The notes below the pieces were generated by a model. The model was not told where the DNA came from and did not search any database. It was given only the letters and a program-made list of their open reading frames with translations. 34,037 nucleotides of DNA from Actinomycetota bacterium (GTDB lineage Bacteria > Actinomycetota > Acidimicrobiia > IMCC26256 > PALSA-555). The DNA lies in NCBI GenBank assembly GCA_016870245.1, contig VGCA01000010.1:1-34037 (forward strand). The letters run 5' to 3'. Position numbers and translations under genes: made by a program. This document shows positions 713-933 of this stretch, piece after piece (position 1 is the stretch's first letter; the number at the start of each line of letters is the position of its first letter).

Positions 713-883
713 ATGCGTACCCCGCAGCTGGACAACCGGATCAACCGGGACTCCGCCGGGACCGCGCGCGCCTCGTACGCCAACGTCTGCGCGATGCCGG
801 CAGCTTCGTGGTCGTTCCCGACGATTCTCGTCGCGACCGGCCACAAGCCCGAGCCCCGGCGGCACCCCGTGACCCCGCTGTAG
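713..883 (+). CDS. Putative 56-aa leader uORF of whiB7
   Basis: ATG at 713 with GAGG SD at 701-704; MRTPQLDNRINRDSAGTARASYANVCAMPAASWSFPTILVATGHKPEPRRHPVTPL, TAG at 881-883; ends 27 nt before a terminator-like palindrome. Confidence 0.5.
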   Translation: MRTPQLDNRINRDSAGTARASYANVCAMPAASWSFPTILVATGHKPEPRRHPVTPL

Positions 884-909
884 CGCCCACCAGCGCACAC
901 GAGTCACCA

Positions 910-933
910 GGCCGCCGGGGCGCCCCGGCGGCC
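910..933 (+). terminator. Leader intrinsic terminator/attenuator hairpin upstream of whiB7
   Basis: 24-nt perfect palindrome GGCCGCCGGGGCGCCCCGGCGGCC followed by moderately T-rich GTTCTTCGCGTTC. Confidence 0.6.

Follow-up and report, generated by a model that had tools for sequence, protein, structure and literature searches.

The leader of the antibiotic-resistance regulator gene whiB7 in the window (i.e. the whole analysed stretch of 34,037 nucleotides) is highly likely to be a uORF-coupled transcription attenuator made up of three RNA segments, in which the end of an upstream open reading frame (uORF) and the 3' arm of a terminator compete for one shared arm. As such, it is an instance of the uORF attenuation known for whiB7/wblC, here with comparative support and without the additional 1:2 pairing that a first-pass annotation of the same DNA had included. 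The gene controlled is a true WhiB7: the encoded protein carries the WhiB domain, the GVWGG motif and the RGRP AT-hook, and its closest solved structure is that of M. tuberculosis WhiB7 (4.8e-22), with a match that spans the GVWGG motif and the RGRPPK AT-hook. The window is a contig of a 3.36-Mb draft genome; both WhiB7 and genome kinship place its nearest relatives in the class Acidimicrobiia. The elements of the leader, all on the forward strand, are the following.

629-666, + strand: probable promoter, with a TTAATT box (629-634), a -35-like GTGCAC (637-642) and a -10-like CACAAT (661-666)
713-883, + strand: uORF of 56 codons, MRTPQLDNRINRDSAGTARASYANVCAMPAASWSFPTILVATGHKPEPRRHPVTPL, from the ATG at 713 to the stop codon TAG (881-883), with GAGG at 701-704, ~8 nt ahead of the ATG; found at the same place and with similar length in relatives
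753-760, + strand: segment 1 of the first-pass annotation, CCGCCGGG; the sequence is present, and unsupported as a functional pairing partner
853-863, + strand: segment 2, the antiterminator 5' arm, within the uORF; exact 11-bp complement of 911-921, covarying with segment 3
868-907, + strand: predicted stop-codon hairpin, the inner part of the antiterminator, formed by GTGAC (869-873) with GTCAC (903-907) and an apical stem; encloses the stop codon (881-883)
910-921, + strand: segment 3, the shared arm; terminator 5' arm, of which 911-921 doubles as antiterminator 3' arm
922-933, + strand: segment 4, the terminator 3' arm; the terminator pairs covary
934-945, + strand: weak U-tract of the terminator, GTTCTTCGCGTT, 4 T of 8
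1083-1442, + strand: whiB7, 119 aa, with an SD-like AGAAGGGG before the ATG; Pfam Whib (PF02467)

In the mechanism that we propose, RNA polymerase would produce segment 2, the stop-codon hairpin and segment 3 ahead of segment 4. When ribosomes stall or slow down within codons 1 to ~43, or when initiation is blocked, the end of the uORF would be ribosome-free, and segment 2 could capture segment 3 in a long antiterminator (853-921), upon which whiB7 would be transcribed. Ribosomes that reach the last ~12 codons would melt the stop-codon hairpin and mask segment 2, which would leave segment 3 to pair with segment 4 as the 910-933 terminator, and transcription would mostly end at ~935-945. The WhiB7 produced in the ON state would probably boost its own promoter via the AT-rich box. 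We infer that the uORF is translated, that termination takes place and that WhiB7 is autoregulatory and, by analogy with known systems, that the inducing signal is the action of ribosome-targeting antibiotics or amino-acid starvation.

The leader and its probable terminator among relatives

The basic description of the leader in the first-pass annotation was accurate: the coordinates of the SD-preceded 56-aa uORF are exact, 910-933 is a perfect 24-nt palindrome that follows the uORF stop codon, and the distance from this hairpin to the whiB7 start at 1083, given as about 150 nt, is 149 nt. The T-rich tail that it described does contain T residues, yet to a moderate extent only (4 in the first 8 nt, 6 in 12). 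In the case of the promoter, the assignment is a by-eye reading of family sequences, in which the box and hexamers of the window align with TAATT..(TTGACC) and TGCCAC.CT at the corresponding position in relatives; an automated promoter search succeeded at few loci only, and a generic sigma-70 scan of the leader found no promoter. These promoter-like elements make a transcription start at ~672-674 probable. An extra copy of a terminator arm (GGCCGCCGGGGCG, 605-617), fully complementary to 921-933, is located just upstream of the presumed promoter and lies probably outside the leader transcript. The spacing between the -10-like CACAAT and the uORF is ~46 nt in the window and ~7 nt in the same-genus leaders L087 (uORF from ~969) and L146 (uORF from ~287), the uORFs of which may, judging from this spacing and unlike that of the window, be translated from a leaderless transcript.

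The upstream regions of whiB7 from 128 loci were compared by means of a fixed rule, that is, a terminator-like hairpin upstream of whiB7, its best complement 25-80 nt ahead and an ORF through that complement. The U-tracts of two leaders from the genus of the window (L086 and L087) fail this rule, and their hairpins were entered by hand. Under the rule, almost all Acidimicrobiia loci have one and the same order (uORF, segment 2, uORF stop codon, terminator, whiB7), with uORFs of ~50-60 codons, a stop codon that typically lies 16-23 nt past segment 2 and a terminator that typically lies 22-31 nt past the stop codon. A similar layout and spacing, with other helix sequences, was found at Mycobacterium, Prescottella and Modestobacter loci, and no terminator was found under the fixed rule at some actinomycete loci, among them several of Gordonia, Rhodococcus and Brachybacterium.

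A covariance model of the leader was built and searched in the genome of the window and in 149 class genomes. The genome of the window contains a single strong match (E 5.7e-19) and no convincing further copies of the attenuator, the next hit (E 0.06) being the opposite strand of the same palindrome. Matches were obtained in 82 of the 149 class genomes, and in all 20 that were checked the best match lies ~70-350 nt upstream of whiB7. The leaders in 18 of these 20 are less than 90% identical to every model sequence and were therefore counted as held out; in each of these 18 genomes the best match is located just upstream of whiB7. Four genomes (G007, G048, G051 and G058) have a weak best WhiB7-like match and likewise no model match. 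In Rfam, no family covers the leader, the lone weak match being to a miRNA family far below its cut-off. Three loci (L127, L148 and L149, in genomes G059, G147 and G078, respectively) carry two whiB7-like genes ~0.9-1.1 kb apart, with an attenuator hairpin and T-rich tail between the two genes, that is, preceding the downstream copy only.

The number of T residues in the 8 nt after the hairpin is 4 in the window, 1-2 in same-genus relatives and 6 as the class median. The tails of L086, L087 and L146 read TGGGAACGG, GTGCTCGCG and GTCGGA (cut by the contig end), respectively. In three species of the genus the U-tract is nearly lost and the hairpin almost unchanged. We consider it improbable that the 910-933 hairpin of this genus lacks intrinsic terminator activity and that the uORF instead gates Rho action, RNA polymerase pausing or mRNA stability. 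Such a reading would fit the weak U-tract of the window, the tails of its sisters and the generic terminator scan, which did not flag the 910-933 hairpin, but the window retains GUUCUUCGCGUU and in most of the class 5-7 of the 8 nt that directly follow the same hairpin are T. The hairpins of the same-genus relatives either bring about termination despite lacking a proper U-tract, or do so weakly or with the help of a factor. Termination at the window hairpin may likewise be inefficient or require a factor, and here lies the chief doubt about the window itself.

Pairing partners of segments 2 and 3

The complementarity between the end of the uORF and the terminator 5' arm, from which the first-pass annotation derived a mutually exclusive antiterminator, exceeds chance: of 100 dinucleotide shuffles, one attained the 11-bp match (p = 0.010 in a narrower test), and the fold of 838-921 (-46.9 kcal/mol, z = -4.7) was equalled in none of 200 shuffles. 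The proposed antiterminator recurs across Acidimicrobiia with compensatory changes, and the 2:3 pairing beats shuffles at p <= 0.05 in 62% of 78 leaders.

Covariation was analysed in an alignment of 47 leaders. In the terminator, 95.3% of the cells are paired and double-sided changes occur in 7 of the 11 pairs. In the antiterminator 80.8% of the cells are paired, versus 30-50% after sliding by 1-3 columns, and there are 25 double-changed cells versus 10.4 in shuffles; the number of antiterminator pairs in which a double change occurs, 4, is unremarkable. The antiterminator covariation is concentrated in a single alignment pair, 36/106, which joins segments 2 and 3 and is G-C in 25 leaders, A-U in 15, G-U in 2 and something else in 5. 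In 13 of the 15 A-U leaders, segment 4 stays G, which results in a G-U wobble in the terminator. Because segment 4 is unchanged in these 13 cases, segment 2 follows segment 3 directly, and it appears from the alignment that the 2:3 pair itself is kept, rather than a mere copy of segment 4. The association that keeps pair 36/106 apart from segment 4 has a Fisher p of 1.3e-6, uncorrected for relatedness. By parsimony on a poorly resolved WhiB7 tree the states of this pair changed 13 and 10 times, and a phylogenetically independent test yielded 3 well-supported independent pairs, with none against, a number that is not significant alone. Taken at the level of the sequences, both the 2:3 antiterminator and the 3:4 terminator are supported by compensatory changes; of the three helices for which covariation in relatives had been proposed as a check, it is the 1:2 helix that has no such support.

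The first-pass annotation had proposed a four-segment attenuator like that of trp, in which 1:2 and 3:4 together represent the OFF state and 2:3 the ON state, and in which an early-stalled ribosome on segment 1 frees segment 2. The 8-bp match on which it was built, that of 753-760 to 855-862, is exact and does exist, but it is at chance level in this leader (p = 0.15, shuffles). In 78 leaders, the strongest pairing between segment 2 and the upstream uORF does not surpass that of shuffled sequences (mean p 0.60, combined p 0.99), and in the window leader 1:2 is not favoured at any modelled ribosome position (its probability is ~0 at almost all of them, with a maximum of 0.27 at codon 56). Moreover, since segment 2 has the sequence of segment 4, 753-760 matches both alike. 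The four-segment scheme is therefore very improbable, and the 1:2 pairing was rejected as a component of the switch: because its scores in the 78 leaders do not exceed those of shuffled sequence, the switch is one of three segments, not four. Nor is 1:2 necessary, because the free RNA already forms the antiterminator. A constitutive terminator, or chance palindromes in GC-rich DNA, without regulatory link to the uORF is a reading with next to no probability, for although inverted repeats are common in such DNA (27 in 600 bp), the class-wide layout, the 2:3 compensation independent of segment 4 and the top model matches at whiB7 in held-out genomes all argue against it.

Predicted switching and the uORF peptide

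As folded, the antiterminator is longer than the first-pass annotation gave, in that it includes a conserved stop-codon hairpin: the predicted fold of 838-921 consists of the 11-bp helix, an inner GTGAC/GTCAC helix and an apical stem within which the stop codon lies. In the 44 nt that precede the terminator, 57 leaders have a mean z of -2.6 versus shuffles (86% below -1), and in the folds of 79% of them the uORF stop codon sits within a stem.

To model translation, a ribosome footprint of -15 to +14 was moved along the uORF of the window as a mask in folding. The probability of the antiterminator is 0.98 in the free RNA and 0.84-0.99 with the ribosome at codons 1-43, and with the ribosome at codons 46-56 the terminator is formed at 0.99-1.00. 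Placing the ribosome right on the stop codon returns the fold to the antiterminator (0.71), which counts against the model. The predicted logic is that a uORF that is translated through represents OFF and that ribosomes kept off the last ~12 codons by whatever cause represent ON, rather than that an early-stalled ribosome acts by covering segment 1.

A purely thermodynamic switch was rejected for the class as a whole: upon equilibrium folding 8 of 58 leaders switch, and in most relatives the terminator is preferred with or without a ribosome. In transcripts that are cut just before segment 4, 85% of the Acidimicrobiia leaders have the antiterminator above 0.5; with a ribosome placed three codons ahead of the stop codon, no leader does. 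Since few leaders switch at equilibrium and 85% do so co-transcriptionally, the class-wide mechanism is best seen as a race during transcription, i.e. a model that relies on kinetics.

The uORF peptides were aligned for 33 class sequences. There is no invariant column, and Met1, R19, W33 and K45 are each kept in over 90% of the sequences; the consensus has AG-x-AR at about codons 15-19, S-W at about codons 32-33 and KP-x-PRR ahead of the stop codon. The PRR is explained by segment 2, the conserved Arg and Trp are not. The conserved Arg codon is CGC in 29 of 31 cases. Substitutions by codon position number 202/178/307, a third-position excess that is modest evidence for coding constraint on the uORF. 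The idea that the uORF encodes a strongly conserved arrest peptide is not supported by these codon-position counts. A uORF Trp codon is present in 46 of 48 leaders, mostly 19-28 codons before the stop codon; Trp codons are not enriched in the uORF frame relative to the other frames (52, 57 and 40). At the nucleotide level, many uORFs of the class retain GCGCGC (at about 763-768 in the window) and TCGTGG (at about 806-811); GCGCGC is present in the AT-rich relative L104 as well, and the selection behind these motifs may act on RNA or on peptide. Rather unlikely, in our judgement, is the combined proposition that the peptide is under class-wide constraint (AGxAR, Trp ~16 codons on, and Lys and Arg before the stop codon) as a specific sensor and that the genus of the window is converting an intrinsic terminator to one without a U-tract. 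Such a sensor could be a drug-dependent arrest peptide, or could respond to the supply of Trp or Arg, replacing the alanine sensing reported for mycobacteria.

Relation to known attenuators

A uORF-mediated transcription attenuator of whiB7/wblC in Streptomyces and Mycobacterium was reportedly described by Lee, Lee and Roe in 2022. As outlined in later accounts, translation of the uORF leads to formation of a Rho-independent terminator, and disturbed translation to an antiterminator of overlapping uORF and terminator sequence (PMC11550727, PMC10727445). The whiB7 leaders of M. marinum and M. bovis are described as having conserved attenuation after the uORF (PMC4128351), and that of M. tuberculosis is treated as a well-characterised attenuator (PMC13236596). 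The mechanism of attenuation is thus already published for whiB7/wblC and less novel than the first-pass annotation implied. As far as these accounts describe it, the known attenuator shares with the present leader the gene, a long leader, an SD-preceded uORF, a terminator-like hairpin after the uORF (here with a weak U-tract) and an overlapping antiterminator. Nevertheless, the present leader belongs to the class Acidimicrobiia, its uORF peptide differs and so do its helix sequences (GCCCCGGCGGC/GCCGCCGGGGC here versus CGCGTCCGTGG/CCACGGACCCG in mycobacteria).

A similar combination of a uORF with a terminator and an antiterminator senses ribosome-targeting drugs in the ribosome-mediated attenuators of antibiotic-resistance ABCF genes (among others vmlR, lmo0919/rli53 and are5sc; PMC12421871, PMC9226507, PMC11550727), and by analogy drugs may be sensed here. 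The uORFs of are5sc and tiaA are very short and ribosomes stall on their start codons (PMC12421871), whereas the present one has 56 codons, most of them before the switch point. Unlike in ABCF attenuators, the target here is a global regulator and not one resistance gene. In the trp operon attenuator of enterobacteria, the position of the ribosome selects between two exclusive RNA hairpins. The same selection is predicted for the whiB7 leader, but there is no supported 1:2 hairpin and the free RNA would be ON, not OFF.

None of the papers searched dealt with whiB7 in Acidimicrobiia. For the antiterminator helix, the comparison offers compensatory changes that arose in nature; for the uORF, it confines the sensing part to roughly codons 1-43, and it indicates the stop-codon hairpin as part of the switch. 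On this reading, uORF-mediated control of whiB7 also reaches the little-studied Acidimicrobiia, which branched off early from the actinomycetes under study and are known mainly through metagenomes. That such an early-diverging class has the switch argues that this antibiotic-response switch is old.
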